Assembly (NCBI GenBank): GCA_034520365.1
Contig: JAXHNP010000003.1
Coordinates: forward strand, 434,001-498,000
DNA: 64,000 bases
Origin: Desulfobacterales bacterium
GTDB taxonomy: Bacteria > Desulfobacterota > Desulfobacteria > Desulfobacterales > Desulfosalsimonadaceae
Reading direction: 5' to 3'
Positions 20,577-44,636 of the stretch are shown piece by piece. The translations under genes and the position numbers were made by a program. The notes beneath the pieces were generated by a model. The model was not told the DNA's origin and made no database searches. It worked only from the letters and a program-made list of their open reading frames with translations. How positions within the stretch are numbered: position 1 is the stretch's first letter; the number at the start of each line of letters is the position of its first letter.

Positions 20577-20930
20577 ATGGCCAAAAAAATTCTAGTCATC
20601 GATGATGATCCATACACCGTCAGGTACTTGGAAACCCTGTTTCAGGACAATGGATATGAGACGTGCAGCGCGGCAAATGGCGTAGAAGGCCACGATGTGG
20701 TCAAAGCTGAAAAGCCGGATCTGATCACCCTGGATTTGGAGATGAGTCAGGAGTGGGGCACCCGGTTTTACCGGAAACTCTCCAAAGAACCGGAATTAAA
20801 GGATATCCCGATTATTGTGATCAGCGGCATGCCCAGCAGCCACCTGGCCATCAAAAAGGTGGCGGCGTATTTCAGCAAACCGTTTGATCCGGATGAAGTT
20901 CTGAAAAAAGTTAGAGAAATTATCGGGTAA
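20577..20930 (+). CDS. Single-domain response regulator (CheY/DivK-like)
   Basis: The 117-residue receiver protein has no output domain. The acidic pair in VIDDD, the phospho-acceptor Asp at about residue 53 in LITLDLEM, a Ser in VISGM and the Lys in FSKPFDP are present. It is followed after 11 bp by a haem-motif histidine kinase gene, its likely partner. Downstream of tmc genes in Desulfovibrio I recall a similar kinase-DivK pair, so this is probably the sensing arm of Tmc expression or activity. Confidence 0.9.
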   Translation: MAKKILVIDDDPYTVRYLETLFQDNGYETCSAANGVEGHDVVKAEKPDLITLDLEMSQEWGTRFYRKLSKEPELKDIPIIVISGMPSSHLAIKKVAAYFSKPFDPDEVLKKVREIIG

Positions 20931-20941: not shown

Positions 20942-23239
20942 ATGGGTAAATTATTTAATACCCTCCGTGACCATCTGGCGACCAAGCTGATCGTCTCCGT
21001 CGGCATTGTACTGGCACTCTCCCTGAGCGCCTGGACCTGGTTCAACATCCAAAATCAGCGGGAAAAGTTGACCCACAACGTCACCCAGGATATTGACCGG
21101 CTGAGCAACACCATTAAACTCGGCACGCACTATGCCATGATGCTAAACTCCCGCCCGGATATCACCCAGATCATCAACAACATCGCCCAGCAAAAGGAAA
21201 TCAAAGCGATCCGGATCTATAACAAATCCGGAGAAATCAAATTTTCCAACAAATCCGAAGAAATCAACCGGGAAACGGCAATTACCGACGAGGCCTGCCA
21301 CATATGCCACCGCAGAGATCCGCCCCGGCAGCATCTGACCCTGGATCAGCGCACGCGCATGGTTAAAAGATCAAATGGCCCCCGCCTGATGGGCATTGTG
21401 AGTCCGATCCGCAATGAGCCGGACTGCACCACCGCTGCCTGCCATTCCCATCGGGAGGAGCAGACGGTGCTCGGGGTATTGGATGTTGTGGTGTCGCTGG
21501 AAAATACGGATAAATTTATCCTCACGCTGGAAAAGTATACCATCGGTTTTACTGTCATCCTGTTTATAGCCATCGCGCTTATCATCTGGCTGCTTGTCAT
21601 GCGATTTGTCAACCAGCCGATACAGAAGCTGATCCGCGGCACCCGCCTGATTGCAAAAGGCGACTACCACTCCAAGGTGAATATCCGGCAGTCCGATGAA
21701 ATGGGCAAACTCGCCCAGGCGGTCAACCAAATGGCCAATGAAATCGACCGGAAGCAGGGGGAGGTCAACAAGCAGAAACAGGAGTATCAAAAGCTGTTTG
21801 AACAGGTACCCTGCTTTATTACCGTGGTGGACAGAAATTTTCGTCTGAACCAGTTTAACACGGAATTTGCGGAGCATTTTGAGCCCAAGTATAATGATTA
21901 CTGCTATTTAGCCTATAAGGGCCGAAACAAGAAATGCGAACACTGCCCGGTGGAAAAAACCTTTAACGACGGAAAGCCCCATTTCGGCGAGGAAACCGGC
22001 ATTGACAAATCCGGGGAAACCAAGCACTGGATTGTCCGGACCGCCCCGATTACCAATGAAAAAGGGGAGGTGATTGCCGCCATGGAGATGTGCCTGGACA
22101 TCTCCCCCAGAAAACATCTGGAAGAGCAGTTAAAATCCTCGGAGGAAAAATACTATGCCATTTTCAACAACATCCCCAATCCGGTGTTTGTTTTGGATAA
22201 CAATACGCTGGAGATTCTGGACTGCAATGAAAGCGCCGAGGCGCTTTACGGATATACCAAATCCGAACTGATCAGCCGGCCGTTTACCGCGCTGTTCAAT
22301 GAAAACGAAGTCGAATATTACCAGGATAAAATCCACACCTCCGCGGTGATTAACAAGGTCAAACAATTCCATAAAAACGGGGATCGGCTCTATGTCAATA
22401 TACGGGTCTCGCCTTCGGAATTTGCCGGCATTAAAGTCTATTTGATCACTACCAGCGACATCACCCAGCGGCTTGAAACCGAACAGCAATTGGTCCAGGC
22501 AAGCAAAATGGCCACCCTGGGGGAAATGGCCACAGGCATCGCCCATGAACTGAATCAGCCGCTTTCAGTCATTAAAACCGCCAGCGGATTTCTGTTGAAA
22601 AAGCAGCAGTCCGGGGCTGAACTGGCGGCTTCCACGTTTCAGTCCATGCTTGAAAAAATTGACAGCAACATTGACCGGGCCACCAAGATCATCAACCACA
22701 TGCGCGACATTGCCCGCAAATCCGATCTGCAGCTTCAGCCCATGCAAATTCTGGATGTCATCACCAAAGCCTACGAGATGTTCCAGCAGCAGTTAAAACT
22801 CCGGGAAATATCGGTTGAATGGGACCTGCCGGAAGACCTGCCCACGATTAACGGTGATCCGGACCGGCTCGAACAGGTGTTTATCAATCTGTTTGTCAAT
22901 GCCCGGGATGCCATCGAGGAAAAATGGGGGGGCACGGCGTATACCGAAGAAGACAAAAAAATCCGAATCACCGGCAGAACCGAAAACCGCTCGGTTATTA
23001 TTGAATTCTCTGATACCGGCGCCGGCATCCCGAAGAACATGGCCGACCGCATCTTTGAACCCTTTTTCACCACCAAAGAGGCGGGCAAAGGCACGGGACT
23101 CGGGCTCTCCATCAGCTACGGCATCATCCGGGACTGCGGCGGCCATATTTCTGTTGTCCCGAGTGAGGCCGGCGCCCGATTTATTCTTAAATTTCTTGTA
23201 AGGCGAACAAATGAAGAATCCGCCGATTTTAATCGTTGA
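20942..23239 (+). CDS. Histidine kinase with periplasmic c-haem-motif sensor, HAMP and two PAS domains
   Basis: The 765-residue kinase has a first membrane helix (about 13-36), a periplasmic loop to residue 198, a second helix (about 200-223), HAMP, two PAS domains (about 280-395 and 405-510), a HisKA box IAHELNQPLSVIK and a HATPase domain with GAGIPKNMADRIFEPFFTTK. The loop contains a c-haem motif C119-HI-C122-H123 and a CTTAACH site (C162-H168), so it probably binds one or two haems and senses periplasmic redox state or gas. The first PAS has a CEHCPVEKTF cysteine pair. It lies just downstream of the periplasmic cytochrome tmcA. It overlaps the next gene by 29 bp. Confidence 0.92.
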   Translation: MGKLFNTLRDHLATKLIVSVGIVLALSLSAWTWFNIQNQREKLTHNVTQDIDRLSNTIKLGTHYAMMLNSRPDITQIINNIAQQKEIKAIRIYNKSGEIKFSNKSEEINRETAITDEACHICHRRDPPRQHLTLDQRTRMVKRSNGPRLMGIVSPIRNEPDCTTAACHSHREEQTVLGVLDVVVSLENTDKFILTLEKYTIGFTVILFIAIALIIWLLVMRFVNQPIQKLIRGTRLIAKGDYHSKVNIRQSDEMGKLAQAVNQMANEIDRKQGEVNKQKQEYQKLFEQVPCFITVVDRNFRLNQFNTEFAEHFEPKYNDYCYLAYKGRNKKCEHCPVEKTFNDGKPHFGEETGIDKSGETKHWIVRTAPITNEKGEVIAAMEMCLDISPRKHLEEQLKSSEEKYYAIFNNIPNPVFVLDNNTLEILDCNESAEALYGYTKSELISRPFTALFNENEVEYYQDKIHTSAVINKVKQFHKNGDRLYVNIRVSPSEFAGIKVYLITTSDITQRLETEQQLVQASKMATLGEMATGIAHELNQPLSVIKTASGFLLKKQQSGAELAASTFQSMLEKIDSNIDRATKIINHMRDIARKSDLQLQPMQILDVITKAYEMFQQQLKLREISVEWDLPEDLPTINGDPDRLEQVFINLFVNARDAIEEKWGGTAYTEEDKKIRITGRTENRSVIIEFSDTGAGIPKNMADRIFEPFFTTKEAGKGTGLGLSISYGIIRDCGGHISVVPSEAGARFILKFLVRRTNEESADFNR

Positions 23240-24716
23240 TGATGAACCGGATATCCGGGAGGTTTTGGAAATCACCCTGACCGATACCGGCTACACAGTG
23301 TACACGGCTGAAAGCGGGGCAGCGGCAATGGATATTTTCCGCGAGGTGCAACCGCCGATCGTGCTGACAGACATCAAAATGCCCGGCATGGACGGGATCG
23401 AACTGCTGGAAAAAATCAAAAACGAAAACCCGGAAACCGAAGTGATTATGATCACCGGCCACGGGGATATGGATGTGGCGGTTAAAAGCCTTCACCATGA
23501 CGCCACGGATTTTATTACCAAGCCCATTAACGACCATGCCATGGAAGCCGCGCTCAAAAAGGCCCGGGAGCGGATTGCGGTTCGGGAGAAAATGCGGGAG
23601 TATACGGAAAATCTGGAAAACCTGATCCTTGAAAAATCCAGAGCCCTCTCATCCTCAGAGCAGCCGTCTGAAGCAGAGGGGGATCGCTTCGGCCTTTCCG
23701 ACAGCTCGGTGTTTGATGAACTGCCCTGCTTTATCGCCATTCTTAACCGGCAATTCTATTTTATTACCACAAACCGCTGGTTCAAGGACACTTTCAACAG
23801 CGAGATTTCCAGCCGGCGCTGCTATCAGATTTTAAAACAGGCGGAGGAGCCCTGCAAGGAATGCCCGGCCGCGGCCACATTCGGCGACGGCCAGCCCCAT
23901 GAGGCCAAAGCGGATTATACCACCGCCGAGGGCCGGAAGTATCCCGTACTGGTCTGGACCTCGCCGATTCGAAATGCCGAGGGCGTTATCCACCGGGTGC
24001 TGGTCATGGCCACACCGATCGATCGGCTGACCGATCTGCAGGACCATTTAAGCTCCCTGGGGCTGATGGTGGGCTCGGTCTCCCACGGATTAAAGGGGTT
24101 GCTCACAGGCCTTGACGGCGGGATGTATATGCTGGACTCCGGGCTTGAAAAAGAGGATACTGCCCAGGCCAAAGAGGGCCTCCAGATGGTTAAATCCATG
24201 ACCGAACGGATCCGCAACATGGTGTTAGACCTATTATTCTATGCCAAAAAGCGGGAATTAAAGACCCAGCCGGTTAATGTGGCGGATTTTGCAAAGGATG
24301 TGGCGGATGTGGTGGCCGCCAAGCTGGAATGGCAGCACATTGAATTTATACGGGATTTTCAGAACGCCGGCGGCGAATTTAACATTGACGCCGGGATGCT
24401 CCGCTCCGCGCTGGTCAATATCCTGGAAAACGCCATGGACGCCTGTCTGGCGGATAAGGAGCGGGCCTCAAAAACCACCTTTACGGCCGAAACGCGGGAA
24501 AATGAGGTAGTTTTTGAAATTGAAGACAACGGCATCGGCATGGATGAGGAGACCCAGAACAATATCTTTACCCTTTTCTATTCATCCAAAGGCAAACAGG
24601 GCACCGGCCTCGGCCTCTTTATCGCCAACAAGGTGGTCACCGAGCATGGCGGTGAAATCCGGGTGGAAAGCGAAAAAGGGGAAGGGTCAAAGTTTACTGT
24701 CACGATTCCCAAATAA
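23211..24716 (+). CDS. Hybrid receiver-PAS-histidine kinase
   Basis: The 501-residue protein starts with a receiver domain (about 1-120; acceptor Asp at about residue 54 in VLTDIKMPGMDG), a coiled region, a PAS domain with a PCKECPAAATF cysteine pair, then a kinase core with SVSHGLKGLL and a HATPase domain (NILENAMDACL, DNGIGMDEETQ, GTGLGLFIANK). It has no membrane helix, so it likely relays phosphate from the preceding haem kinase. It overlaps that gene by 29 bp, which implies translational coupling. A strong stem-loop follows. Confidence 0.92.
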   Translation: MKNPPILIVDDEPDIREVLEITLTDTGYTVYTAESGAAAMDIFREVQPPIVLTDIKMPGMDGIELLEKIKNENPETEVIMITGHGDMDVAVKSLHHDATDFITKPINDHAMEAALKKARERIAVREKMREYTENLENLILEKSRALSSSEQPSEAEGDRFGLSDSSVFDELPCFIAILNRQFYFITTNRWFKDTFNSEISSRRCYQILKQAEEPCKECPAAATFGDGQPHEAKADYTTAEGRKYPVLVWTSPIRNAEGVIHRVLVMATPIDRLTDLQDHLSSLGLMVGSVSHGLKGLLTGLDGGMYMLDSGLEKEDTAQAKEGLQMVKSMTERIRNMVLDLLFYAKKRELKTQPVNVADFAKDVADVVAAKLEWQHIEFIRDFQNAGGEFNIDAGMLRSALVNILENAMDACLADKERASKTTFTAETRENEVVFEIEDNGIGMDEETQNNIFTLFYSSKGKQGTGLGLFIANKVVTEHGGEIRVESEKGEGSKFTVTIPK

Positions 24717-25021: not shown

Positions 25022-25879
25022 CTAAATAAAAGCGGATACACTGGAAAGGTTCATCTCGATGGAGAGGTTCCTGGGGTCGATGCCCATGGCAAGGCCCAGA
25101 AACTGGGGGAGATAAAGAATGGGGCGGTGAAGGTCCTGATGGGCGGATCGGGAGACCTGGTTCTGGTAGCCTTCGAGGTTCATCTGGCACATGGGGCAGA
25201 CGGTTACGATGGCGTCCGCGCCGCTGGCGCCGGAAAGAATGGCGGCCACCATCTCCTGGGCGATCTCCGGCTGGATGTTCATCAGGGACGCCCCGCAGCA
25301 TTTGGCCCCCATCCGCCAATCGTGGATGCTGGCCCCGGTGGCCAGAATCAGTGGTTCCATAGAGGTGGGATCTTCCGGGTCATCAAAAACCTTATAAGGT
25401 CTGAGGCACTGGCAGCCGTAGTAAAGGGCGACCCGGTATTGGTCCATACTTGATTGGAGGTAACCGGCCAAGCCCTCCGCGCCGATATCGGAAACCAGAA
25501 CATCCAGCAGGTGCCGGACCCGTTTAGCGCTCTGGAGCTTCAGCCCCTCGGGTTCCAGTGCCTGGTTTACCCGTTTTAGTAAATCGGGATTTTTCCGCGT
25601 TTCTTCCGCCGCCCGCCTTAAATTGAGATAACAGGCACTGCAGGGGACCAGGATATCCTTTATTGACTCGTCCATGGATTCGGCAACGGCCAGATTCCGG
25701 GCCGGCAGCGCATAGGACAGCAGATCACTTTCCGCCTCGGCCGCGGAGGCGCCGCAGCAGGTCCAACCTTCGATTTCAATCAGTTCTATCCCTAAGGCCT
25801 GAAAAAGCGCCCGGGTGGAGCGGTCGTATTCAAGTGCCGTGCCCTCAAGCGAACAACCCGGATAATACAGGTATTTCAT
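25022..25879 (-). CDS. hdrB: Heterodisulfide-reductase subunit B-like protein (CCG domains)
   Basis: The 285-residue protein carries two CCG cysteine blocks: YYPGCSLEG with GWTCCGAS and PCSACYLNL, and later YYGCQCLRP with MGAKCCGASL and CPMCQMNL. In HdrB these hold non-cubane iron-sulfur clusters at the site of disulfide reduction; in bacteria lacking coenzymes M and B the substrate may be another disulfide or an electron carrier. It is the last gene of a minus-strand operon and overlaps hdrC by four bases (ATGA). Confidence 0.93.
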   Translation of the reverse strand: MKYLYYPGCSLEGTALEYDRSTRALFQALGIELIEIEGWTCCGASAAEAESDLLSYALPARNLAVAESMDESIKDILVPCSACYLNLRRAAEETRKNPDLLKRVNQALEPEGLKLQSAKRVRHLLDVLVSDIGAEGLAGYLQSSMDQYRVALYYGCQCLRPYKVFDDPEDPTSMEPLILATGASIHDWRMGAKCCGASLMNIQPEIAQEMVAAILSGASGADAIVTVCPMCQMNLEGYQNQVSRSAHQDLHRPILYLPQFLGLAMGIDPRNLSIEMNLSSVSAFI

Positions 25880-26442
25880 TTCGCTTTCTCCAGTTCTTCC
25901 ACGCGCCGAAACATTCGGTCCAATGGATGCTCGGGCTTGCTTTTATCCGGAAATATTGAAATTTTGCCCTTCCGCAGCAGCCGGAGACCCAAGGGCGTAA
26001 ATTTTAGGGGAATGGCGGGATTTTTCATTAAAATAAAGTAGCGGCGCATGAACTCCATTTCGTTTACCCGGCCGTGCCGGCGCACACTATCCAGAAAACT
26101 TCCGTAAAACCGGGCACTCGGCCGGTATTCGGCAATATTTTCATGGGCTGCAGCCCGTTTCAAGGCATGCATGGCTTCTGTCAGAGGGAGCCCCCGGGGG
26201 CATCGGAGTGTGCAGTAATAGCAGGCCGAGCATAGGGCAAAAGTTCGGCTGTGAAACACCTCTTCGGTGTTCCCTGTGAGCACCAGCCGCCAGAGCCTTC
26301 GCGGGGTGAAATCCATCAGATTCGCGTTTCTGCACGAGCCCGTGCAGGTCCCGCACTGGATGCAGGCCAGCAGCTCCTCGCGTATGGGCGCCAGAATGGC
26401 ATCCGATATTTCATGGGGCTTTGCGCGCCTGGCTGTTTTCAT
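25876..26442 (-). CDS. hdrC: Heterodisulfide-reductase subunit C-like ferredoxin protein
   Basis: A 188-residue protein with two [4Fe-4S] motifs typical of HdrC: CIQCGTCTGSCRNA and CSACYYCTLRCPRG, followed by a helical C-terminal region. It should pass electrons from HdrA to HdrB. It sits between the receiver-containing HdrA gene (18 bp away) and hdrB (overlapping). No membrane segment is seen, so the complex is probably cytoplasmic. Confidence 0.93.
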   Translation of the reverse strand: MKTARRAKPHEISDAILAPIREELLACIQCGTCTGSCRNANLMDFTPRRLWRLVLTGNTEEVFHSRTFALCSACYYCTLRCPRGLPLTEAMHALKRAAAHENIAEYRPSARFYGSFLDSVRRHGRVNEMEFMRRYFILMKNPAIPLKFTPLGLRLLRKGKISIFPDKSKPEHPLDRMFRRVEELEKAK

Positions 26443-26459: not shown

Positions 26460-29400
26460 TTATAAGGATGCCATGGCGGCATCGATCACCTCAAACATCT
26501 CAAGCTCGGATCCGCTGGAAAGAATGGTGGCGCTATTCGGACAGACGGCCGCACACGCCCCGCAGCCCTGGCATTTAATGGCATGCACGACGATCTCCCC
26601 GGTTTCGGGATCAACTGCCCGGGCGCCATAGGGGCATGCCGAAATGCACAACTGACAGGCCGAGCAGAGCGCATGGCGGACCACGGCCACCCGCTGCCCG
26701 GCGTTTATCCGCTGGCGGGAAATCATGCGCACCGCCCGCATGGCCGCGGCCTCGGCAGATGCCATACTGTCATCAACGGCGCGCGGGGAAAGCGCCAGGC
26801 CGCAGGCAAACACCCCGGCCGCCAGGGACTCCACCGGCCGCCACTTAAAATCCGCTTCCTTGAAAAACCCCTGCTCGTCAATTTTGGCATCCAGTTCCGG
26901 CAGCAGCGCATCCGGCAATGCCGGGCGGATGCCGGTGGCGAGAAGCAGCAGATCCGCATCAATCTGAACGCTTTGCCCGAGAATGGGGTCCTCCGTCATA
27001 ATCCGCACAGCGCCGCCCTCGCCTTCAGCCCCTTCGGGCAGCACAACCTCAGGCTTGGCATCTGTTGTGTATGGAAAAAAGATGATCCCCTGCTGCCTGG
27101 CCCGGGTATAATAGGTTTCGTAAAACCCGGGGGTCATCATATCCCGGTAAAGGACATAGACAGATATATCCGGATTTTCCTGCTTCAGGTAAAGGGCATG
27201 TTTTAATGCGGAGATACAGCAGATGCGGCTGCAGTAGTTCCGGGGCGCCTCCCGGCAGTCCACGCACTGGATCATGGCCACACATGAAAGATTTGCCGGA
27301 TCGATGTCGCCTTGTGCGCGGGCGGTTTCAAACGCCTTCTGCGTCATCACGGCCGCACTTTTTCCGTGGCCGTAGCTCTCGGTTTCCGCCTCAACGCCGC
27401 CGGTGGCCAGGATGGTGACGCCATGGGAGACCGGGTTTTCATTCTCGCCGTCACTGATTTTGCTCTGGAACCGGCCCACCGTCCCCTTCGCATCCATCAC
27501 CTCTGAATTCAGGTGCACGTTAATCAGGGAATGATCATTTACCCGGGCAATGGTGTTTTCAAGCAGCTCACGCACATCCGTCCCACTAATCATGTAGGTG
27601 AGCCAATTCAGGTTGCCGCCCAGGTTTTCCGTCTTTTCCACCAGATCCACCTGGAAGCCATGGTCGGCAATGGATAGCGCCGCGGTCATTCCGGCAATCC
27701 CGCCGCCGATTACCAGCGCTGACTGATAAACATCCACATGCGGCGAACCTGTCAAATCCGCCCGCTTTAGCCCGGAAATTGCCATTTTGAGGTTCCGGGC
27801 CACATAGCCGGTATTTACGGGCATCTGATCGGCGGCCGCGGAATCCGCGGCAAACCATTCGGCGAGATAAATATCCTTTATTTGCACGGCCGCTTCCGGC
27901 AGGCCCGCGGCATCGGCGATCTCTCCCCGCCGATGCGCATAGGCATTGGGCGAGCAGGTGGCCAAAAGGATCCGGTTTACGGTTTTGTCTTTTACTTCTT
28001 CCAAAAACGCCATCCAGCCATCATCCCTACAAAGCTGATCCAGTTCCAGGCACCTTGCAACCGCCGGCTCGGCTTGCATTTGCTCAAGCAGCGCCGCCAT
28101 ATCAATTATCTTGGGCAGGCGGCCGCCGCAGGTGCATAACACGACCAGAACACCCGGCATTTCCCGGCGGATATCACGGCTCTGGCGCTCAGCCGTTTCA
28201 ACCGCTTCCAGGCTGCCGCCGCTCCGATGGATGGCCAGGGAGGCACCGCAGGCGGCTGACTGGGCGCGAATCACCGCGTCATTAATATCGGTTAACCCGG
28301 ATACCGCACCGCCGAGAAAAACCCCGGGCTTTGCGGTTCGGGTAAGGGAAAACGGCCGGGGCGCGAGATACCCCCATTGATTAAGATCCAGCTCCAGCAT
28401 CTCTGAGAACCTGCCCGCGCTATCCGCCGCCCGCTGGCCCACAGACAACACCACCAGATCAAACCCGCCTTCCCTGGCCCCTTCGGCATCCACATACCGG
28501 ATCATAAGCTTTGGGCTATCATCATCCGTGGGGCTCACCGAGTGGACCCGGCAGCGCTGCAGCATGACCCCGGCATCCAGCGCCTCATCCAGATACTGCT
28601 GGAACGGCTTTTCAAACACCCGCATATCCATGTAAAAAATGACCGTTTCCACTTCCCCGCCGCTCATTTCACGGGCCAGCATCGCCTCCTTTAAAGCGGA
28701 CATGCAGCAGATACTGGAGCAGAAATCAGAATCGGTCTGAAGGTCCCTTGAGCCCACGCACTGGATCCAGGCGATTTTTTTGACCGGCTGCCTATCCGAC
28801 GGCCGCAGGAGCTGACCCCCAAAAGGACCGGTGCCGCTGATCAGCCGTTCAAACTCCAGGTGGGTGACCACATCCGGGTAAACCCCGTAACCGTAAACAT
28901 CCTTTTCATCCGCCGGGTTAAAATAGCGGCAGCCGGCGGAGATGACCACCGCGCCCACGTCAAGGACGCGCTCGAGGCTTCCGTCGCTCTCTTCATAAAG
29001 CCGGTAGATCTGGGGCAGGAGCGATGTCTCCTCAAAGGGTTTCACCAGGTAGTCCACCGCGCCTATCTTCATGGACTCCACCGCGGTCTCGATGGTGGCG
29101 TAGGCTGTCATCATCACCACCCGGAGCTCCGGCTGCAGGGTCAAAGCCTCTTTCAGGACATCCACGCCTTCCATACCCGGCATTTTGATATCCAAAAGCA
29201 TCAAATGAAACGTATCCGCCTTCAGCTTCTCCAGCGCCTCTTCACCGGATTCGGCCATGTCGGCAAAAAACCCTTCATCCGCCAGAAGCGCCCGCAGGGA
29301 ATCCCGGACGATCAGCTCATCATCCACCACCAGGATTCTAAACTTCTCCCGGTCTGCGGTGGCCATACGGATCGCCCCGGTGGGACATACCGGCACGCAT

Positions 29401-29909
29401 TCACCGCAGTGTGTGCATGCGGAAAGATCGATCACGTAAGTCCCGGGCAGCATCTGGGGGGCGGGCCGGTATATGGCTTTTCGGGTGGAAAGCCCCGCAT
29501 TGAAATCATCTTTGACCTCGACCGGGCAGGCGGCCGCACAATCCCCGCAGCCCGCGCACCGCTTGGGGTTCACCAGCGTTGGGGGCTGGTGCAGGGTGGC
29601 GGAAAAATTTCCCGCTTCACCCGAAATATCCGTTACTTCGGCGGCAGTCAGCACCTCGATGTTGTCATGGAAAAGCCCGCGCCGCAGACATTGCTGAATG
29701 GCCTGATCCGGTTCCGCGGCCGGCAGCATTTTGCACATGCCGCAGCGGTTGGTCGGAAACTGGTGATCCAGCTGCTCAAGTATCCCGCCGATATGCGGGG
29801 CCTTGTCCACCAGGTAGACCTGGTAGCCGGTTTCCGCCAGATCAATGGCCGAGCGGATGCCGCTGATGCCGGCCCCAATAACAAGCGCTGATCCGGATTT
29901 CGATGCCAT
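26460..29909 (-). CDS. hdrA: HdrA-like flavoprotein with an internal response-regulator receiver domain
   Basis: This 1149-residue protein is a double-length HdrA. Order: FAD-binding start (ALVIGAGISGIRSAI), the HdrA cysteine site RCGMCKML near residue 57, two ferredoxin motifs (C118 and C165 regions), a complete receiver domain (about 190-305), the rest of the first HdrA unit (WIQCVGSRD, CSSICCM), a CTCGGRLP segment, a second FAD unit (SALVIGGGIAGMTAA), and two C-terminal ferredoxin motifs ([24 protein letters not shown]). The receiver has D196-D197, acceptor D240, T268 and K290, so it looks phosphorylatable. HdrA is the flavin electron-splitting hub of Hdr complexes. The gene is in one operon with hdrB, hdrC, an FrhB-like gene and mvhD, near REC-PAS kinases. 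Start after GGAGG. Phospho-control is inferred. Confidence 0.92.
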   Translation of the reverse strand: MASKSGSALVIGAGISGIRSAIDLAETGYQVYLVDKAPHIGGILEQLDHQFPTNRCGMCKMLPAAEPDQAIQQCLRRGLFHDNIEVLTAAEVTDISGEAGNFSATLHQPPTLVNPKRCAGCGDCAAACPVEVKDDFNAGLSTRKAIYRPAPQMLPGTYVIDLSACTHCGECVPVCPTGAIRMATADREKFRILVVDDELIVRDSLRALLADEGFFADMAESGEEALEKLKADTFHLMLLDIKMPGMEGVDVLKEALTLQPELRVVMMTAYATIETAVESMKIGAVDYLVKPFEETSLLPQIYRLYEESDGSLERVLDVGAVVISAGCRYFNPADEKDVYGYGVYPDVVTHLEFERLISGTGPFGGQLLRPSDRQPVKKIAWIQCVGSRDLQTDSDFCSSICCMSALKEAMLAREMSGGEVETVIFYMDMRVFEKPFQQYLDEALDAGVMLQRCRVHSVSPTDDDSPKLMIRYVDAEGAREGGFDLVVLSVGQRAADSAGRFSEMLELDLNQWGYLAPRPFSLTRTAKPGVFLGGAVSGLTDINDAVIRAQSAACGASLAIHRSGGSLEAVETAERQSRDIRREMPGVLVVLCTCGGRLPKIIDMAALLEQMQAEPAVARCLELDQLCRDDGWMAFLEEVKDKTVNRILLATCSPNAYAHRRGEIADAAGLPEAAVQIKDIYLAEWFAADSAAADQMPVNTGYVARNLKMAISGLKRADLTGSPHVDVYQSALVIGGGIAGMTAALSIADHGFQVDLVEKTENLGGNLNWLTYMISGTDVRELLENTIARVNDHSLINVHLNSEVMDAKGTVGRFQSKISDGENENPVSHGVTILATGGVEAETESYGHGKSAAVMTQKAFETARAQGDIDPANLSCVAMIQCVDCREAPRNYCSRICCISALKHALYLKQENPDISVYVLYRDMMTPGFYETYYTRARQQGIIFFPYTTDAKPEVVLPEGAEGEGGAVRIMTEDPILGQSVQIDADLLLLATGIRPALPDALLPELDAKIDEQGFFKEADFKWRPVESLAAGVFACGLALSPRAVDDSMASAEAAAMRAVRMISRQRINAGQRVAVVRHALCSACQLCISACPYGARAVDPETGEIVVHAIKCQGCGACAAVCPNSATILSSGSELEMFEVIDAAMASL

Positions 29910-29921: not shown

Positions 29922-31064
29922 TTATTCCCCGATGCCCACAATTTCGGAAAACTCCTCTTCCTTGAACACCAGAAGCGGCGGCGCCTCCTCCGTGCTCCGG
30001 CCGGCCTCATAATCAAATGCCGCCTGGGTGCGATGCGAAACGGTCCGAAAAAGCTCGGTTAGGGGGATATCATTGGGGCATGCGTTGGAGCACTGCCCGC
30101 AGCCCACACATGCCGTGCTCATGTGCGTTAGCCGCGTTATGTGATAAAATACGGTGTCCGTCGGCATCTTGAGCGCCCCCTTGCGATCCGCCCACTGGAG
30201 GTATTGCATGGGATCATGCTCGAACACATCTGTTGTGAATACGCATTCCCGGCAGTAGCAGGCCGGACAGGCCACCCGGCAGTTATAGCAATTCACACAG
30301 TCCGCCAGGTAGGCGGCCAGTTTCTCAATGCTTGACACTGCCGCCGCGGTTTCTTCAAACACCTGATCCCGGGCGGCGATGCGCTCATCGATTAAATTTT
30401 GGACCACTTCGGCCCGATCCTTTGGCGCCTCGGCGGGGCTTGCGCCGATCTTTTCCAGAATCTCCCGGCCGCGCTCGGTTTTGGCCTGCAAGAAAAGCCC
30501 GACGGCCAGATCCACGCCGTAGAGTCCGATGATAATGTCAGCCGCCTCCGGCACCGGGTGCTCGCAGATCCGGCAGGCACTATTCATAACCGCCGGCTCC
30601 GGCGGATCGTTGCCGGAAAGCCTTGCCTTCTGGAAGACGTCACTTGAATTTTCCGGATTTTCCGCGGCAAACTTCGGATAGGAGCGATTGGTCAATGCCC
30701 CCAGACAGTCCATGCCTATCAGGATAACCGGCTCTTTCTCGCTCTGATGGAGCTTGATTAGTTCCACAAATGCCCTTATTTCGCAGGATCGCATCACAGC
30801 GGCGATATTTGCGTCCAGTCCTTTGCGCGTTAAGCGGGATAAGTTTTTGGCCGAATTCACTGTAAACGCGGGCGCCAGGGGATCGGCATCATCTAAAAAC
30901 CCGGGCCGGGACACCAGGGCCGGCATTACCGTATCTTTGACAGGCAGCCGCCGGGGGACCAGCACCCCGCTGATCCCGTCCAGTTCAAGCACGGATTTTA
31001 AAAATCCCTGGATATCGGTAAGAAGCTCATCGCCTTGCCGGTCGATCTTGTACCAATCGCTCAT
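29922..31064 (-). CDS. FrhB/FdhB-family iron-sulfur flavoprotein with C-terminal ferredoxin domain
   Basis: The 380-residue protein resembles the beta subunits of F420-reducing hydrogenase and formate dehydrogenase (MRSCEIRAF, VILIGMDCLGAL, CRICEHPVPEAADIIIG) and ends in an HdrC-like ferredoxin domain (CVNCYNCRVACPACYCREC and CVGCGQCSNACPND). In related systems such subunits bind FAD and exchange electrons with F420, NAD(P) or ferredoxin. Here it sits between mvhD and the receiver-HdrA gene, so it probably connects the Hdr complex to a soluble donor. The exact partner is not known; F420 use in this group is not implied by the sequence alone. Confidence 0.83.
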   Translation of the reverse strand: MSDWYKIDRQGDELLTDIQGFLKSVLELDGISGVLVPRRLPVKDTVMPALVSRPGFLDDADPLAPAFTVNSAKNLSRLTRKGLDANIAAVMRSCEIRAFVELIKLHQSEKEPVILIGMDCLGALTNRSYPKFAAENPENSSDVFQKARLSGNDPPEPAVMNSACRICEHPVPEAADIIIGLYGVDLAVGLFLQAKTERGREILEKIGASPAEAPKDRAEVVQNLIDERIAARDQVFEETAAAVSSIEKLAAYLADCVNCYNCRVACPACYCRECVFTTDVFEHDPMQYLQWADRKGALKMPTDTVFYHITRLTHMSTACVGCGQCSNACPNDIPLTELFRTVSHRTQAAFDYEAGRSTEEAPPLLVFKEEEFSEIVGIGE

Positions 31065-31094: not shown

Positions 31095-31520
31095 CTAGAT
31101 CACCATTTGCTGTTTGCACGCATTCGGTCCGATTTGCTTGATTTGCGACACCATTTCCTTGATGGTATCGGCAAACTGGATGCCGTCGCTGGCCCCGATC
31201 CAGGTGAGCCGAAGGCGTTCCGGTTCAAAGCCGAACCCGGGAAGAATCTCCTTTAACAGCCGCATCCGCCGGCGGGCCTTGAAGTTGCCGTTGATATAAT
31301 GGCAGTCCCCGGGATGACAGCCGCTCACCAGTACCGCGTCCGCCCCGTCCAGCAGCGCTTTGATGATATATTTGGGATCCACCATGCCGGTGCACATGAC
31401 CCGGATCAGCCGGACATTCGGCGGATAGGTCAGCCGGGAAGTGCCGGCCAGGTCGGCTGCGGTATATGTGCACCAGTTACAGACGAATGCGATGATGGTG
31501 GGCTCAAATTCTTCTTCCAT
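31095..31520 (-). CDS. mvhD: MvhD-like [2Fe-2S] electron-transfer protein (cysteine form)
   Basis: The 141-residue protein starts at the ATG at 31520, directly after a GGGAGGAG site; the longer open frame upstream lies over the HdrA gene and is spurious. Motifs FVCNWCTYTAADLAG, RVMCTGMVD, and SGCHPGDCHYINGN are diagnostic of MvhD. In methanogens and acetogens MvhD links hydrogenase or methylene-H4folate reductase to HdrA. The paralogue at 42483 has selenocysteine where this one has the second Cys of NWC. It lies 16 bp after the GltD-containing HdrA gene. Confidence 0.93.
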   Translation of the reverse strand: MEEEFEPTIIAFVCNWCTYTAADLAGTSRLTYPPNVRLIRVMCTGMVDPKYIIKALLDGADAVLVSGCHPGDCHYINGNFKARRRMRLLKEILPGFGFEPERLRLTWIGASDGIQFADTIKEMVSQIKQIGPNACKQQMVI

Positions 31521-31536: not shown

Positions 31537-34500
31537 TCATTGACCAACCGCATAAATGGCATTAAACAATCCGTCCAGCTCCGACATGAGCTGCTTTTCC
31601 TTAAAATGCCGGACCTGGGCCGCCCCGCTGGGACATATCGCTGCACAGCTGCCGCAGCCTTTACACACCGCCTCATTGACCACCGAGATTTTGCGCCGCC
31701 CGTCAAACTCGATCGCCGAATACGGACACAGCGCAATACACATCTGGCAGCCGGCGCACAAATCCGGATCAATCGAAGAGATGGCGGACGGAATCTGAAC
31801 CTTTCCCCGGGTCGCAAGGGCGAGCGCTTTGGAGGCTGCGCCCGAGGCCTGGGCCACTGTATCCGGAATATCCTTGGGTCCCTGGCACGCCCCGGCGATG
31901 AATACCCCCCCGGTCGGGGTTTCCAGCGGGCCCAGCTTGGGATGCTCTTCCAGAAAAAAGCCGTCCGCTCCGACACTCATGCCGAATGTGCGGCTGACTT
32001 CCTGGGCGTCCGGCCGGGCTTCCATGGCCACGCACAGAATCACCATATCCACCGGCACCCGTATGGGGCGGCCGAGCAGGGTGTCTTCGGCGATTGCCAC
32101 CAGTTTTCCCGTCTCTTCCGGGGTCCTTGCCTCATCAGTGATTTCAGCGACTTTTCCCCGGATAAAGGTCGTGCCCTCTTCCTGGCATTTCCGGTAAAAC
32201 GCCTCGTAGCCTTTACCAAAACAGCGCTGATCAATGTAGAAATCATAGACCGGGGTATCATGGCCCACCTTGTCTTTGATCAGGTGGGTAAATTTCAAGG
32301 CATACATGCAGCAGACCCGGGAGCAGTACTCATGGTAGTTCACATCCCGGCTGCCGATGCAGTGCAGAATGGCGACACTCTCCGGCTTTTTGGTGAATTC
32401 GCCCTTTTCATCTTTTATCAGGATCTGACCGCCGGTGGGGCCGGTGGCGTTGCTTAGGCGCTCGAATTCAAGCCCCGTATAAACATTCGGATACTTGCCA
32501 TACCCATAGGGCTTCATGGGGGTGGGGTCCATCAAATCATAGCCCGTGGCCACAATCAAACTGCCCACTTTGACCTCGCGAATTTCAGGGGCCATCTGAT
32601 GATCGATGGCATTGGCCTGGCAGGCGTTAACGCACTGCATGCACTCGCAGCAGCCGCCGCAGTTTAAGCACCTGGCGGCCTCTTTCCGGGCATCGGCGTC
32701 CACAAGCCCCGCACTGACTTCGGAAAAGGACTGAATCCGCTCCGGCGCCGCTTGATGTGAAGGCGAACACCGGGATTCCGGCTTCAGGTTCTCGGGTATG
32801 GGCTTCCAGTCGCTCCCCGGCGCCGGCTCTTTGGCCAGTTCTTCGGCATAGGCTGCCAAATCCGCCCCTTGGATATAGCGGTCAATGGCGGCCACTGCCT
32901 TGTGGGCCTGGGCCACGGCCTCAATGACCGAGGCCGGCCCGGTCACCGCATCCCCGCTGGCAAATACATAGGGAATTGACGTCTGCAGCGTATTGGGATC
33001 AACGATCAGGGTGCCGCGCCGGGAAATCTCGATCTCCGTATCCTTCAGCTGATCCGCCAGCCCCGTGCTTTGCCCGATGGCCGGTATAACGAGATCACAG
33101 GAGATTTCAAATTCAGAGCCTTCCACCGGCACAGGCCGGCGCCGGCCGCTTTGATCCGGCTGGCCGAGTTCGGTCCGGATACATTGCAAGGCGCTTGCCC
33201 GGCCGCCCTGGCCCATTATTTGAACCGGCGCGGTGAGATAGTATATGCGCACGCCCTCGGCTTCAGCATCCGTTATTTCTTCCTCATAGGCGGGCATCTC
33301 GGCGCGCGATCGCCGATAGACCAGCGACACCGAATCCGCGCCCAGGCGCCTGGCAGACCGGGCTGCATCCACGGCCACGTTGCCGCCGCCGATCACCGCC
33401 ACGGATTTGCCGGTCTCCGGGGCCTCCCCCAGGTTCGCCCGGCGCAGAAATTCAATGGCATCCATAACACCCGTCTCGGTGTCCTCGCCGGCAATCCCCA
33501 TTTTCATGGGAAAATGGGCGCCGGTGCCCATGAACACCGCGGAAAAGCCCTCTTCTTTAAGGCTTTCGAATGTAAAATCCCGTCCCAGCCACTCTCCGCA
33601 GCGGGTCTGGATTCCGGTATTTAACAAAAAATCAATTTCGCGGTCCAGTACAGACGGCGGAAGCCGATAGTCCGGAATGCCCAGCCGCAGCATGCCGCCC
33701 AGCACCGCCTGGCCCTCGAAAATGGTAACCGGGTAGCCCTTCAGCCGCAGATAGTAGGCAGCGGTCAGCCCGGCCGGGCCGGCGCCGATCACCGCGATTT
33801 TCTCCGGCCGGTCTTCGATTTCCGGTACGGGCAATTCGGAAAGATCCACCTGGTCCGCGGCAAACCGTTTGAGTTCCCGAATGGATACCGCACTGTCCAC
33901 CTCGGCCCGCCGGCAGACAGACTCGCACGGATGGGGGCATACCCGGCCGAGCACGCCGGGCAGGGGCAGGCGCTCCATGATCAGCTGCACGGCCTCACGG
34001 TATTTGCCCTGGCCAATTAACTGCACATAGCCCTGGACATTGATGCCCGCCGGGCAAGTCGTGGTGCAGGGCGCCCTGTCCTTTTTATCAATCACATAGG
34101 TAATGGGCACCGCCTGGGGAAATGAGCGGTAAATGGCTTTTCGCTCGGCAAGTCCTTCATCCCAGCCGCTTGGCATGGAAACCGGGCAGACGCTCATGCA
34201 CTCGCCGCATCCGGTGCAGACACCTTCCACCACGTACCTGGGCTTTCGCCGCACGGTGACCGTGTAATTGCCGATATAGCCGCTGACCTCCTGAACCTCC
34301 GAATAGGAGAGGAGCTCAATGTTGTCGTTCTGGCCCACTTCCACCATCTTCGGGGTGCCGATGCAGGCGGCGCAGTCAAGCGTTGGAAAAGTTTTGTCGA
34401 ACTGGAGCATATGGCCGCCGATGGTGGTATCCTTTTCCACCAGGTAGACCTTATGCCCGGCACTGCCAAGATCAAGGGCTGCCTGCATGCCGGCGATGCC

Positions 34501-34947
34501 CCCGCCGACCACCATGATATCCGGATGAACACCGACTTCCCGGGTTTCCAGGGGATAGTGGAACTGCACCCGGTTGACCGCGGCGGCGGCCAGGGTTTTC
34601 GCCTTTCGGGTCGCGACATCCGCGTCTTCGGTTACCCAGGAGACCTGCTCGCGCACCGAGGCCATCTGAAAATAATAGGGATTAAGCCCGGCCCGGCGGC
34701 AGGCGCCCTGAAAGGTTTTCTCGTGAAGGCGGGGGGAGCAGGAGGCCACGACCACGCGGTTTAAGCCGTGTTCCCGGATATCGGTTTCAATGAGTTCCTG
34801 GCCGGGGTCCGAGCACATGAACTTGTAATCCCGGGACACCGTGACATTTTTTAAATGGCTGACATACTCGGCAACCTCTTCGACCCGGACTTTGGAGGCA
34901 ATGTTGATGCCGCAGTGGCAGATATAGAAACCGACGCTAAGGGGCAT
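31537..34947 (-). CDS. hdrA: HdrA-like flavoprotein with GltD-like NAD(P)H oxidoreductase insertion
   Basis: The 1136-residue protein starts with an HdrA N-terminal piece (FYICHCGINIASKV), then FAD-binding [13 protein letters not shown] (about 150), the cysteine site DCAACIGTPKMVEVG, a ferredoxin motif (CTGCGECMSVCPV), a GltD-like glutamate-synthase small-subunit module (about 300-690; [45 protein letters not shown]), then the HdrA remainder and C-terminal ferredoxins (CAGCQMCIALCP, CKGCGSCAAICP). The extra module suggests NAD(P)H as donor or acceptor. It is the first gene of the mvhD-frhB-hdrA-hdrC-hdrB unit. The Cys in DCAAC corresponds to selenocysteine in the 38032 paralogue. Confidence 0.92.
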   Translation of the reverse strand: MPLSVGFYICHCGINIASKVRVEEVAEYVSHLKNVTVSRDYKFMCSDPGQELIETDIREHGLNRVVVASCSPRLHEKTFQGACRRAGLNPYYFQMASVREQVSWVTEDADVATRKAKTLAAAAVNRVQFHYPLETREVGVHPDIMVVGGGIAGMQAALDLGSAGHKVYLVEKDTTIGGHMLQFDKTFPTLDCAACIGTPKMVEVGQNDNIELLSYSEVQEVSGYIGNYTVTVRRKPRYVVEGVCTGCGECMSVCPVSMPSGWDEGLAERKAIYRSFPQAVPITYVIDKKDRAPCTTTCPAGINVQGYVQLIGQGKYREAVQLIMERLPLPGVLGRVCPHPCESVCRRAEVDSAVSIRELKRFAADQVDLSELPVPEIEDRPEKIAVIGAGPAGLTAAYYLRLKGYPVTIFEGQAVLGGMLRLGIPDYRLPPSVLDREIDFLLNTGIQTRCGEWLGRDFTFESLKEEGFSAVFMGTGAHFPMKMGIAGEDTETGVMDAIEFLRRANLGEAPETGKSVAVIGGGNVAVDAARSARRLGADSVSLVYRRSRAEMPAYEEEITDAEAEGVRIYYLTAPVQIMGQGGRASALQCIRTELGQPDQSGRRRPVPVEGSEFEISCDLVIPAIGQSTGLADQLKDTEIEISRRGTLIVDPNTLQTSIPYVFASGDAVTGPASVIEAVAQAHKAVAAIDRYIQGADLAAYAEELAKEPAPGSDWKPIPENLKPESRCSPSHQAAPERIQSFSEVSAGLVDADARKEAARCLNCGGCCECMQCVNACQANAIDHQMAPEIREVKVGSLIVATGYDLMDPTPMKPYGYGKYPNVYTGLEFERLSNATGPTGGQILIKDEKGEFTKKPESVAILHCIGSRDVNYHEYCSRVCCMYALKFTHLIKDKVGHDTPVYDFYIDQRCFGKGYEAFYRKCQEEGTTFIRGKVAEITDEARTPEETGKLVAIAEDTLLGRPIRVPVDMVILCVAMEARPDAQEVSRTFGMSVGADGFFLEEHPKLGPLETPTGGVFIAGACQGPKDIPDTVAQASGAASKALALATRGKVQIPSAISSIDPDLCAGCQMCIALCPYSAIEFDGRRKISVVNEAVCKGCGSCAAICPSGAAQVRHFKEKQLMSELDGLFNAIYAVGQ

Positions 34948-35116: not shown

Positions 35117-35150
35117 AGAACAGATCCGCGCCCAGAACAGATCCGCGCCC
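35117..35150. repeat. 17-bp tandem duplication at a kinase gene end
   Basis: AGAACAGATCCGCGCCC occurs twice in direct succession (35117-35133, 35134-35150), ending at the TAG stop of the kinase gene. A recent slippage duplication. Confidence 0.85.
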
Positions 35151-36718
35151 TATTGATTTTCCGCCGCAGGCAGCTCCAGGGTAAAGCAGGCGCCCCCGGC
35201 AGGTTCATTGGCCGCGGAGATACTGCCCTCATGATGCTTTACAATACCGTAGACCGTGGATAAACCAAGGCCGACACCGTAGCCCGCATTCTTGGTGGAA
35301 AAAAAGGGTTCAAAAATTCGGGGCAGATCCGACTCCTTAATCCCCGGGCCCGAATCCCGGACCCGGATAACCACCCTATCGCCCGCCTGGCCGGCCCCGG
35401 CTGAAATCTCAAGCTTTCCGCCGTCCGGCATGGCATCCACGGCATTGAATATCAGATTGATGATGCACTGCTGGAGCTGGTTGAAATCTCCGTAAATGGG
35501 GGGGAGATCGTCTGCAATGGAAACCCGGCAGTCGATATGCTGAAGTTTTAATTTATGCTGGGAAAGCAGCACGCAGCGATTCAACAGCTCTGATGCCTGG
35601 ATATTTAAAAAAACCGGCTGGGATGTCCGGGCAAATGAAAGCAGGCTGGAGACAATTTTAGAGCACCGGCTGGTCTCGCTTTCAACCAGAGCGAGGTGTT
35701 GCTGAAACTGTTCATGGGTTTTGCCGGAAACCGGCCCCCGATCCAGGATCCGCTTCATCAGGTGCATGTAGTTTAGCATCCCGGAGAGCGGATTATTGAT
35801 TTCATGGACAATGCTTGCGGCCAGACGACCCAGGGACATCATTTTATCCTGATGCAGAATCCGGCCCTGATCGGCCAGTTCCTGCTCAAGCCGCCGGATT
35901 TCGCGAAGATCGCGAAAAAAGCAGACCAAACCGGCGATCTTTGCCTCTTCAAACATCCGGGTGGCAGACACCTGCATGGGGACCCGCTCGCCTGATTTTG
36001 CCGCCAATTCGGTTTCAAAGAGAAACAGCCGATCCCTGCCGCCATAGCCGGGGCCGTCCAGGGCATCAAAAAAGAGCTGATAATTATCGGACGGTAAAAC
36101 ATCCGCGAGGGTTAATGCCTTAAAATCGGTTTCCCGGCTGTAGCCCAGCATCTGCTGGAGGCTTTGATTAAAAATGATGACCTGCCCGGTTTCATCGCAG
36201 CCAAGGATGCCGTCCATTGAATATTCGATCAGCTTGTCCCGGAAGGCATGGCTGTCAATCAGCTCCTGTAGCGTTTTAGCGTTCTGCTGCTCTAAAAGCG
36301 CCGTATATTCGCGGATTTCTTTTTTGGACAGGTACCGGTCTTTGGCGCGATTTAAGGCGACATCCAGGGCGGTTTCATTGATGGGCTTGGTGATAAAATC
36401 CGAGGCATCCAGCTGAAGGGCGCGGATCGCCACCTCCATATCGCTGAAGGCGGTGATCACGATCACCTCCATATCCGCGTATCGACGCTTTATCTCTTCC
36501 AGCACCCCTATCCCGTCAATACCCGGCATCCGGATATCCGTGATCACAATATGGGGCGGGCGGGCTTCGCAGCGGGCCAGTCCGGCCTCTCCATCCTCAG
36601 CGGTTTCCACCTGAAATCCGGCGTCTTCGAGAACCATCCGCAGAATATCCCGAATATCCGCCTCGTCATCAATAACCAGAATCCGCCATTCAGGGGACTG
36701 ATCGGTGCTTGGGGACAT
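35150..36718 (-). CDS. Receiver-PAS-histidine kinase
   Basis: A protein of about 522 residues from the ATG at 36718, preferred over one eight codons upstream because AGGAGA lies ten bases before it. Domains: receiver (about 8-125, acceptor Asp in IVITDIRMPGIDG), coiled region, PAS (about 165-285), HisKA with IVHEINNPLSGMLNY, and HATPase (NLIFNAVDAMPDGG, DSGPGIKESDLPRIFEP). No membrane segments, so it is a cytoplasmic sensor. It lies upstream of the minus-strand Hdr operon, separated by about 200 bp with a stem-loop, and is a good candidate partner for the receiver within HdrA. Confidence 0.92.
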   Translation of the reverse strand: MSPSTDQSPEWRILVIDDEADIRDILRMVLEDAGFQVETAEDGEAGLARCEARPPHIVITDIRMPGIDGIGVLEEIKRRYADMEVIVITAFSDMEVAIRALQLDASDFITKPINETALDVALNRAKDRYLSKKEIREYTALLEQQNAKTLQELIDSHAFRDKLIEYSMDGILGCDETGQVIIFNQSLQQMLGYSRETDFKALTLADVLPSDNYQLFFDALDGPGYGGRDRLFLFETELAAKSGERVPMQVSATRMFEEAKIAGLVCFFRDLREIRRLEQELADQGRILHQDKMMSLGRLAASIVHEINNPLSGMLNYMHLMKRILDRGPVSGKTHEQFQQHLALVESETSRCSKIVSSLLSFARTSQPVFLNIQASELLNRCVLLSQHKLKLQHIDCRVSIADDLPPIYGDFNQLQQCIINLIFNAVDAMPDGGKLEISAGAGQAGDRVVIRVRDSGPGIKESDLPRIFEPFFSTKNAGYGVGLGLSTVYGIVKHHEGSISAANEPAGGACFTLELPAAENQ

Positions 36719-36765
36719 GGGGCCTTCTCTCCTGATTTGCATTCGCCATGGCTATGCGCAAGGGA

Positions 36766-37956: not shown

Positions 37957-38031
37957 GCGTTCCCGCAAAAGGGCCGCCAGAAAAATGGATGGCAAAACAA
38001 TCTGCCGTCAAATAAAGCAGGAGTATCATTA

Positions 38032-42486: not shown

Positions 42487-42920
42487 CCGAAGATTTTGAA
42501 CCCACTATCGTGGCCTTCTGCTGCAACTACTGAGGATATTCGGCTGCGGACCTGGCAGGTTCGATGCGACTGAATTATCCCACCAGCATCCGGATTATCC
42601 GGGTGCCCTGCACCGGTAAGGTGGATGTGATTCACATCCTGCGCGCCCTTGAAAAAGGCGCTGACGGCGTGGCCGTGGTTGGCTGCATGGAGGGGGACTG
42701 CCACTTTAAAACAGGCAATTTCAGGGCCAGAAAACGTGTGGAGCAGGCCCAGAAATTGCTCGATATTGTCGGGACCGGCGGTGAACGGGTGCAGATGTAC
42801 AACCTCTCCTCCGGCGAGGGGCCCCTGTTTGCCCGATATGCCGAAGAGATGTATGAAAATGTTAAGGCCCTGGGGCCGAATCCGATCAAAAAACATAAGC
42901 GTAAAAAAGATGCTGCATAA
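42483..42920 (+). CDS. mvhD: MvhD-like electron-transfer protein; selenoprotein (Sec17)
   Basis: The ATG at 42483 overlaps the hdrA stop (ATGA). With TGA 42531-42533 read as selenocysteine, the frame gives 145 residues: FCCNYUGYSAADLAG, then RVPCTGKVD and GCMEGDCHFKTGN. The paralogue at 31095 has FVCNWCTYTAADLAG in the same place, so Sec replaces the second Cys. Without recoding only a 16-residue peptide would result. It is expected to bind a [2Fe-2S] cluster and connect the metF/metV enzymes to HdrA. A GC stem follows the TGA. Confidence 0.93.
42548..42562 (+). promoter_or_regulatory. Bacterial SECIS-like hairpin after the mvhD TGA codon
   Basis: GGACCT (42548-42553) pairs with AGGTTC (42557-42562), six pairs including one G-U, around a GGC loop, 15 bases after the TGA. 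Consistent with a bSECIS element, though not proven. Confidence 0.5.
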
Positions 42921-42943
42921 AATATAAATAGTGAGGTCAATCC

Positions 42944-44541: not shown

Positions 44542-44636
44542 TTCATTGCCCGAGATTATATAGAATATACTCAAAACATATAACCAGCAGCCCGAGGTAT
44601 CCATCCCCGACATCTGGCGCGAAAAGGAGGGAAAAG

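Follow-up and report, generated by a model that had tools for sequence, protein, structure and literature searches.

CheB and PleD exemplify response regulators whose output is enzymatic: a receiver is fused to an enzyme. The protein considered here, HdrA-REC, differs from these in that the receiver lies within the chain and the enzyme is a flavin- and Fe-S-containing electron-transfer hub. It is encoded in a 64,000-nucleotide stretch of DNA from a Desulfobacterales bacterium of the family Desulfosalsimonadaceae (assembly GCA_034520365.1, contig JAXHNP010000003.1, positions 434,001 to 498,000), hereafter the window, to which all window coordinates refer. Among the closest known proteins are the HdrA subunits of methanogens (Hdr-Mvh, Hdr-Fdh, and Elp-Hdr; PDB 5odc, 7bkd, 8rwn, and 8rvy). 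Both halves of HdrA-REC match these proteins with Z values of 29–31, but the methanogen subunits are devoid of a receiver and possess one HdrA module per chain. A double HdrA within a single chain, as in HdrA-REC, occurs in MetFV-HdrABC-MvhD of Moorella and in HdrA3/HdrA4 of anaerobic methanotrophic archaea (ANME), for which the main text of PMC9012536 mentions no receiver and contains the term 'response regulator' 0 times. According to the same text, HdrA9-11 of ANME-1 share with HdrA-REC an extra domain at the same lobe; their insert in the ferredoxin domain is an NfnB-like redox module, whereas that of HdrA-REC is a signalling domain.

A further counterpart is HdrA4 of Desulfobacterium autotrophicum HRM2. 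As far as it is described in the main text of PMC2702500, it belongs to the same operon, with tandem hdrL/hdrA, formate dehydrogenase subunit B, hdrB, and hdrC. That text treats hdrA4 as an Hdr paralogue; the word 'receiver' occurs in it 0 times and 'response regulator' once, in a list of neighbouring genes. From the likeness of the operons we infer that HdrA4 of strain HRM2 is an HdrA-REC protein, in which case its sequence has been public since 2009. Among the literature matches listed, no title or beginning of an abstract described a receiver in HdrA, with subscription journals largely uncovered; the initial annotation of the locus, made from the nucleotide sequence, had likewise known of no well-described receiver inside a bifurcating flavoprotein. 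Fusions of receivers to enzymes are known, and a receiver inside an electron-bifurcation flavoprotein is new as far as these searches show. The arrangement is best read as a phospho-switch on Hdr electron flow, a reading held with modest confidence, in which phosphotransfer and its effect are both predicted from sequence.

The HdrA-REC gene (26460–29909, minus strand) is read from 29909 to 26460 without an internal stop and encodes 1149 amino acids (aa). Its open reading frame (ORF), Pfam matches, PDB alignment, AlphaFold2 model, and VIA-align results define two fused HdrA modules plus a receiver. A thioredoxin-reductase-like FAD domain bearing the HdrA sequence signature was recognized with structural Z values of 29–32 and with matches to PDB 9sfi (E 5e-107) and 5odc (E 5e-100). 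The score with the NCBIfam HdrA2 model was 643.5 bits, under its cut-off of 1100. VIA-align resolved HdrA modules at aa 5–564 (HdrA core of 8rwn_A: Z 29.4, root-mean-square deviation (rmsd) 1.8, 417 of 428 residues aligned) and aa 583–1147 (whole HdrA chains: Z about 31). The rows of this comparison mainly span aa 189–310 and 728–1069, and no conclusion is attached to families that they do not list. The initial annotation, which had described one HdrA, needs correction here: the protein contains two such modules, and the receiver is located in the first.

The receiver comprises aa 188–312 (28974–29348, minus strand), close to the residues 190–305 initially proposed, and is delimited by Pfam, AlphaFold2, and VIA-align. 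Pfam Response_reg gave a single match, at aa 192–299 (E 1.4e-28). Structure modelling, which had been recommended for this domain, yielded a full receiver fold: the AlphaFold2 model, based on 51 sequences (mean pLDDT 85, pTM 0.84), shows the complete (beta-alpha)5 order of elements at aa 191–308, and aa 188–312 were aligned by VIA-align with the receiver 3crn_B over 125 residues (Z 22.5, rmsd 1.3). Immediately before it lies the inserted ferredoxin lobe of the first HdrA module (aa 110–186; 29352–29582, minus strand), defined by conservation of its eight Cys and containing two [4Fe-4S] motifs (C118–C128 and C165–C175), both recognized as Fer4 by Pfam. The FAD-domain sequence picks up again at about residue 312. 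In the alignment with chain A of PDB 9sfi, aa 7–183 correspond to residues 145–311 and aa 315–458 to residues 318–460, so that the receiver is placed between the equivalents of residues 311 and 318. It therefore occupies the point at which the chain re-enters the FAD domain from the inserted ferredoxin lobe, and the position assigned to it earlier, directly after the two [4Fe-4S] motifs and before the rest of the flavoprotein, is borne out. According to PMC12350162, electrons are anticipated to leave methanogen HdrA through the inserted ferredoxin-like domain, and their transfer seems to be gated by a moving arm; this makes the site of the receiver a plausible one for a switch.

All active-site residues named in the initial annotation are correct. 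These are the acidic pair D196-D197 (codons 29319–29324), the phospho-acceptor D240 (29190–29192, supported by residue counts in homologues), T268 (29106–29108), and K290 (29040–29042), all encoded on the minus strand. Among 101 distinct proteins, D196 and D240 were kept in 101, D197 in 98, T268 and K290 in 99, and Y287, at the aromatic switch position known from CheY, in 100. A second set of 24 HdrA-REC rows, which overlaps the first in part (some genomes are repeated) and leaves out the second, different fusion of locus L233, displayed the acceptor Asp in 23 and all six residues in 22; locus L236 of genome G264 is devoid of the acceptor, and L249 of the stretch holding the first two residues. 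The combination of an acidic pair, an acceptor Asp, Thr or Ser, and Lys is thus present in the window and in nearly all homologues, and is broken in genomes G655 and G763 (DPDAH) and in G264. Genome G021 also departs from the usual set (DEDTK). A degenerate insert devoid of the acceptor Asp, which the initial annotation had named as the finding that would speak against it, is rejected as the general case.

The spacing around the receiver is nearly fixed. C175 and D196 are 21 residues apart in 98 of 101 rows; the remaining three have a spacing of 6, as expected for three aligned proteins without the ferredoxin lobe. K290 and V319 are separated by 29 residues in 98 of 102 rows. All eight Cys of the ferredoxin lobe were found in 95 of the 98 rows that have the N-terminus, and the lobe is gone in the other three. 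Such linker lengths speak against a floppy tether. The mean pairwise identity in the receiver is 0.654, versus 0.544 and 0.494 in the HdrA parts that follow it. This conservation, together with catalytic residues retained in 98–101 of 101 proteins, makes it highly improbable that the receiver is an inert structural insert left over from a domain shuffle, despite its degeneration in two genomes, the loss of the acceptor in a third, and its mobility between HdrA and Usp proteins (see below).

The receiver-HdrA protein is a genuine conserved fusion. A query covering the junction (aa 153–389) matched 15 of 36 genomes of the family, 147 of 389 genomes of the order, and 14 of 395 genomes of the phylum, mostly as single frames of about 1150 aa. 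The number for the order becomes 145 of 389 after dropping genomes G056 and G128, whose only rows are frames of 454–466 aa (locus L244 of G056 encodes a Usp-REC-Usp protein). This mapping of homologues had also been proposed in the initial annotation. Receiver and HdrA share one frame in all 80 named loci, which are the best 80 of 547 confirmed ones and are biased toward close relatives. The frames are at least 1100 aa long in 66 of these loci; most of the shorter ones are truncated where the contig ends, and HdrA continues in another frame in L067, L100, and L109. Most named loci come from metagenome-assembled genomes titled Desulfobacterales, Desulfobacteraceae, or Deltaproteobacteria. HdrA-REC is also encoded in Desulfospira joergensenii, Desulfonema magnum, and Desulfosarcina alkanivorans. 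An assembly join of two separate genes, or a frame artefact, is excluded by this recurrence in independent assemblies; no point in its favour was found, its probability is negligible, and the continuous frame noted at the outset holds.

A search of 146 genomes with aa 312–1149 returned 50 rows with at least 44% identity; 49 of them come from fusion-bearing genomes, and the remaining one (G038) is truncated at the start of its contig. Below 44% identity, one row with a receiver (G080, 38%) and five receiver-less frames (37–41%) were obtained. The floor of this search was E 1e-170, and more divergent HdrA-REC proteins, such as that of G070, fall outside it. When a tree was built from the HdrA part alone, with the receiver left out, 46 receiver-bearing rows and the two degenerate ones formed one clade (SH-aLRT 99); the receiver-bearing row L157 (G070) is placed outside this clade at an unresolved fork.

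Three kinases of the window have relatives at other HdrA-REC loci. HKa (20942–23239, plus strand) was assigned from Pfam, motifs, transmembrane segments, fold, and relatives, and consists of a Cache-like sensor with CxxCH and CX4CH motifs between two transmembrane segments, followed by HAMP-PAS-PAS-HisKA-HATPase. HKb (23211–24716, plus strand; Pfam and relatives) has the architecture REC-PAS-HATPase without a HisKA match. HKc (35150–36742, minus strand; Pfam and relatives) is a REC-PAS-HisKA-HATPase hybrid kinase. In the window, the HKa-HKb pair (20942–24716) is inverted relative to the operon and HKc is located upstream of it; a single-domain receiver (20577–20930, plus strand; Pfam) precedes HKa. 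Among 161 kinase ORFs, the window's own included, the best window match was HKa for 59, HKb for 51, and HKc for 38. The kinases at 45981 and 47509, which adjoin a second cluster with MTHFR and HdrL, were the best match of 4 and 9 of the same ORFs, respectively. The initial statement that kinase genes bracket the operon thus stands for HKa, HKb, and HKc, whose relatives recur elsewhere, but not equally for the 45981 and 47509 kinases, whose candidacy as partners is weakened by the few counterparts at other HdrA-REC loci.

A kinase was found near 34 of 40 HdrA-REC loci of at least 15 kb versus 6 of 20 loci of receiver-less HdrA (Fisher 7e-5, uncorrected for kinship and stretch length), and none of the latter six kinases is HKa. 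The 20 control loci were hand-picked; two of them are shorter than 15 kb, and many show the kind of split N-terminus expected of selenocysteine genes. Another locus set contained a kinase in 18 of 20 stretches. In 49 named loci with at least 5 kb downstream, a kinase was present within 6.5 kb in 43, on the same strand in 40, and as an HKa relative in 29. At loci without HKa, other kinases can fill the slot (L232, L235, and L237). Strong HKa matches (E<1e-120) occur in 118 of 145 genomes with HdrA-REC versus 61 of 244 without it; at E<1e-60, these numbers are 131 of 145 and 85 of 244. The Fisher test on this co-occurrence treats genomes as independent, which they are not. An HKa-HKb module was also found in L177 (1–10567) beside a sigma-54 activator and three same-strand genes. 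We take these three to encode a Tmc-like redox complex; Pfam analysis of one of them revealed propeller repeats only. These kinases may act on other redox complexes as well.

HKb and HKc have N-terminal receivers, like the hybrid kinase NmpS. In the Nmp system, the double receiver NmpT is a proposed phosphate sink, according to PMC11841059. By analogy, the HdrA receiver might drain or pass on phosphate for the kinase network and leave the enzyme unregulated. We regard this as improbable: a sink or relay has no need to sit inside an enzyme with fixed linkers, and none of the rows of at least 44% identity has been shown to be without a receiver (it is present in 49 of 50, with one undecided).

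The sensor part of HKa has two hydrophobic segments around a periplasmic domain of Cache-like fold. The predicted fold of this domain resembles the WalK-type sensor 5is1 (TMt 0.73, E 3.9e-5) and the haem sensor GSU0935 (3b42, E 1.3e-4). C119, C122, and H123 (CxxCH) as well as C162, C167, and H168 (CX4CH, in some copies CX3CH) are invariant in 36 rows. The two motifs are separated by 43 residues in 35 of the 36 operon copies; the remaining copy is a merged frame that extends beyond the scanned stretch. Haem binding is predicted, and the input of HKa is likely a redox or haem-ligand state. The sCache_heme sensors described in PMC12889525 resemble HKa in that a CxxCH-bearing Cache fold is located in the periplasm, upstream of kinases. 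HKa differs in the second CX3-4CH motif 43 residues on and in PF11845, which is absent from its eight Pfam matches at E 0.001; for the latter reason, it is called Cache-like and is not filed in sCache_heme. The cytoplasmic PAS domain of HKa displays a CxxCP motif in 31 of 36 operon copies, with similar motifs in HKb and the 47509 kinase. This is perhaps a metal or Fe-S site.

The phospho-switch reading can be specified as follows. In Desulfobacterales and their relatives, HdrA-REC is the HdrA subunit that bears the flavin in an Hdr complex (HdrL-MvhD-FrhB-HdrA-HdrC-HdrB) whose other subunits include NAD(P)H- and FrhB-type ones. HKa would sense the periplasmic redox or haem-ligand state and, together with HKb or HKc, set the phosphorylation of D240. 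With less certainty, phosphorylation might alter the alpha4-beta5-alpha5 face of the receiver; the altered face could change the pose of the FAD domain, the ferredoxin lobe, or the donor arm and so turn electron flow up or down without new transcription. The support for this reading includes a complete conserved receiver, near-fixed linkers, its location at the root of the inserted lobe, and linked related kinases.

Natural variants offer a further view of the association between kinases and receiver. Neither HKb nor HKc was matched in genomes G655 and G763, which have the degenerate receivers, and HKa was matched there in its kinase core only (150 of 151 or 156 candidates scored for HKa and 150 of 239–254 for HKb and HKc). 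Since both genomes nest inside the receiver-bearing clade of the HdrA-part tree, the decay of their receivers is secondary. Genome G021 (94% complete), which belongs to the window's genus, has no match to HKa, HKb, or HKc among all candidates scored; its receiver shows 24/98 lineage-unique changes versus 54/762 elsewhere (p 8e-7). The corresponding values are 4/78 versus 46/754 in G022, which has kept the kinases, and 9/83 versus 146/854 in the window. In genomes G344 and G148, the receivers are intact and the stretch read around the operon contains no kinase gene, HKa being encoded elsewhere in the genome; in G344, all six receiver residues (D, D, D, T, Y, and K) are kept and an HKc-like core is located about 11 kb from the operon. 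Kinase absence and receiver change appear to go together in a few lineages, with most, not all, of the cases in agreement.

Several observations weigh against a phospho-switch. Six of the 40 long HdrA-REC loci have no kinase in the stretch, and L230 and L231 encode intact receivers with no kinase ORF within 14.6–14.8 kb. HKa is present in 85 of 244 genomes without HdrA-REC and is also encoded beside other genes, which means that this kinase has other targets. The receiver of G021 retains a chemically plausible acceptor set in a genome without HKa, HKb, or HKc. Genome G023 (71% complete), of the same genus, also gave no match to these kinases, and the part of its receiver that was read shows no clear acceleration: 78/103 positions are identical to those of the window, versus 194/255 in the FAD part. 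In G264, the acceptor is changed from D to G and no HKa match was obtained, with the locus (L236, 6257–8200) cut by a contig end inside the gene; the HKa absences in G023 and G264 are soft, as the HKa screen behind them scored three candidates per genome. The last of these observations concerns genus g133, in six of nine genomes of which the ferredoxin lobe is missing while the receiver and the kinases are kept, so that gating this lobe is not the sole role of the receiver.

Of the nine g133 genomes in which the gene was read, six have no ferredoxin motifs before the receiver (L148, L149, L165, L257, L258, and L259), while the other three have both lobe and receiver (L150, L151, and L260). In those six, the receiver directly follows the first part of the FAD domain, its acidic pair, Thr, and Lys are intact, and the kinases are present in every genome. 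The idea that the receiver serves purely to gate the inserted ferredoxin lobe is thereby weakened. With the lobe missing, the receiver has to exert its effect on or by way of the FAD domain, assembly, or docking. We put forward, as a tentative proposal with slightly less than even chances, that HdrA-REC is an electron-bifurcating flavin enzyme directly controlled by a two-component system, that a haem-bearing periplasmic sensor tunes the Hdr electron split via the phosphorylated built-in receiver, and that this one genus possesses a signal-gated, possibly non-bifurcating Hdr in which the receiver has replaced the ferredoxin exit lobe.

The nearest relatives of the HdrA receiver seen here lie between two Usp domains, as established by Pfam for L101 (10830–12146), L145 (14503–15834), and L244 (10327–11718); their receiver regions share 47–58% identity with the HdrA query. 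The gene for the Usp-REC-Usp protein is located inside the Hdr operon, between hdrB and the kinases, in L101 and L145. Five Usp-type rows, those of L101 and L145 among them, fall inside the HdrA receiver clade (SH-aLRT 99) and six further rows of Usp-like length fall outside, in a tree with few columns and support from SH-aLRT only. The nesting suggests exchange of receiver modules within one signalling network. We know of no redox chemistry in Usp-REC-Usp proteins. The use of the same receiver type in them, its persistence in g133 where the ferredoxin lobe is missing, and the probable membrane location of HKa, with its two hydrophobic segments, would all suit a receiver that serves as a phosphorylation-dependent adaptor and tethers the Hdr complex to HKa or another partner, for docking or assembly, with catalysis unaltered. 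A tether would not require the near-fixed length of both linkers, and we consider this explanation rather unlikely.

To our knowledge, the control of the electron split in bifurcating enzymes of strict anaerobes is largely an open question, and regulation is usually sought at transcription. The HdrA-REC family offers a candidate post-translational switch with candidate kinases, a named acceptor, and natural variants without kinases or without the ferredoxin lobe, and its presence in named strains makes it testable. If the phospho-switch is real, redox sensing outside the cytoplasm would be tied directly to the ferredoxin or NAD(P)H balance of marine-sediment bacteria.

The gene order of the operon, HdrL-MvhD-FrhB-HdrA-REC-HdrC-HdrB, is conserved. 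A small receiver gene often precedes it, and those of the kinases HKa (about 770 aa) and HKb (about 410 aa) often follow. In 39 named loci with at least 6.5 kb upstream, HdrL was present in 37, MvhD in 36, and FrhB in 34. The window contains the full set of the HRM2-type operon in one run (hdrL, mvhD, fdhB/frhB-like, hdrA, hdrC, and hdrB), all on the minus strand. HdrL (31537–34947; Pfam and NCBIfam scans) is a fusion of HdrA and an NfnB/GltD-like NAD(P)H module. It is followed by MvhD/FlpD (31095–31520; PF02662), with the start set from the candidates at ATG 31520 in an ORF open to 31976, and by an FrhB/FdhB-like Fe-S subunit (29922–31064; Pfam PF04432). Downstream of HdrA-REC are an HdrC-like protein (25876–26442), recognized by Pfam Fer4 families and by NCBIfam TIGR03290 below its cut-off, and an HdrB-like protein with two CCG stretches (25022–25879; Pfam and NCBIfam scans).

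Some loci deviate from this order. L095, L106, L107, and L137 contain an extra ORF of about 245 aa that matches HdrC, between FrhB and HdrA-REC, and at other loci HdrL is preceded by an HdrC-like ORF of about 780 aa. A receiver-less HdrA with a TGA near its start, perhaps a selenocysteine codon, is encoded in the same genome as the window, at L003/L004 (G000:C6:557260-560235). A different fusion, with two receivers before the HdrA N-terminal and FAD part, was found in L233 (244–2010, minus strand) and L129 (18423–20183); a TAA ends its frame early. The second cluster of the window (37084–49011) includes MTHFR, a 1416-aa HdrL/HdrA without a receiver, MvhD, a MetV-like protein, and MetF, and continues with a small receiver, an AroE-like protein, and two kinases.

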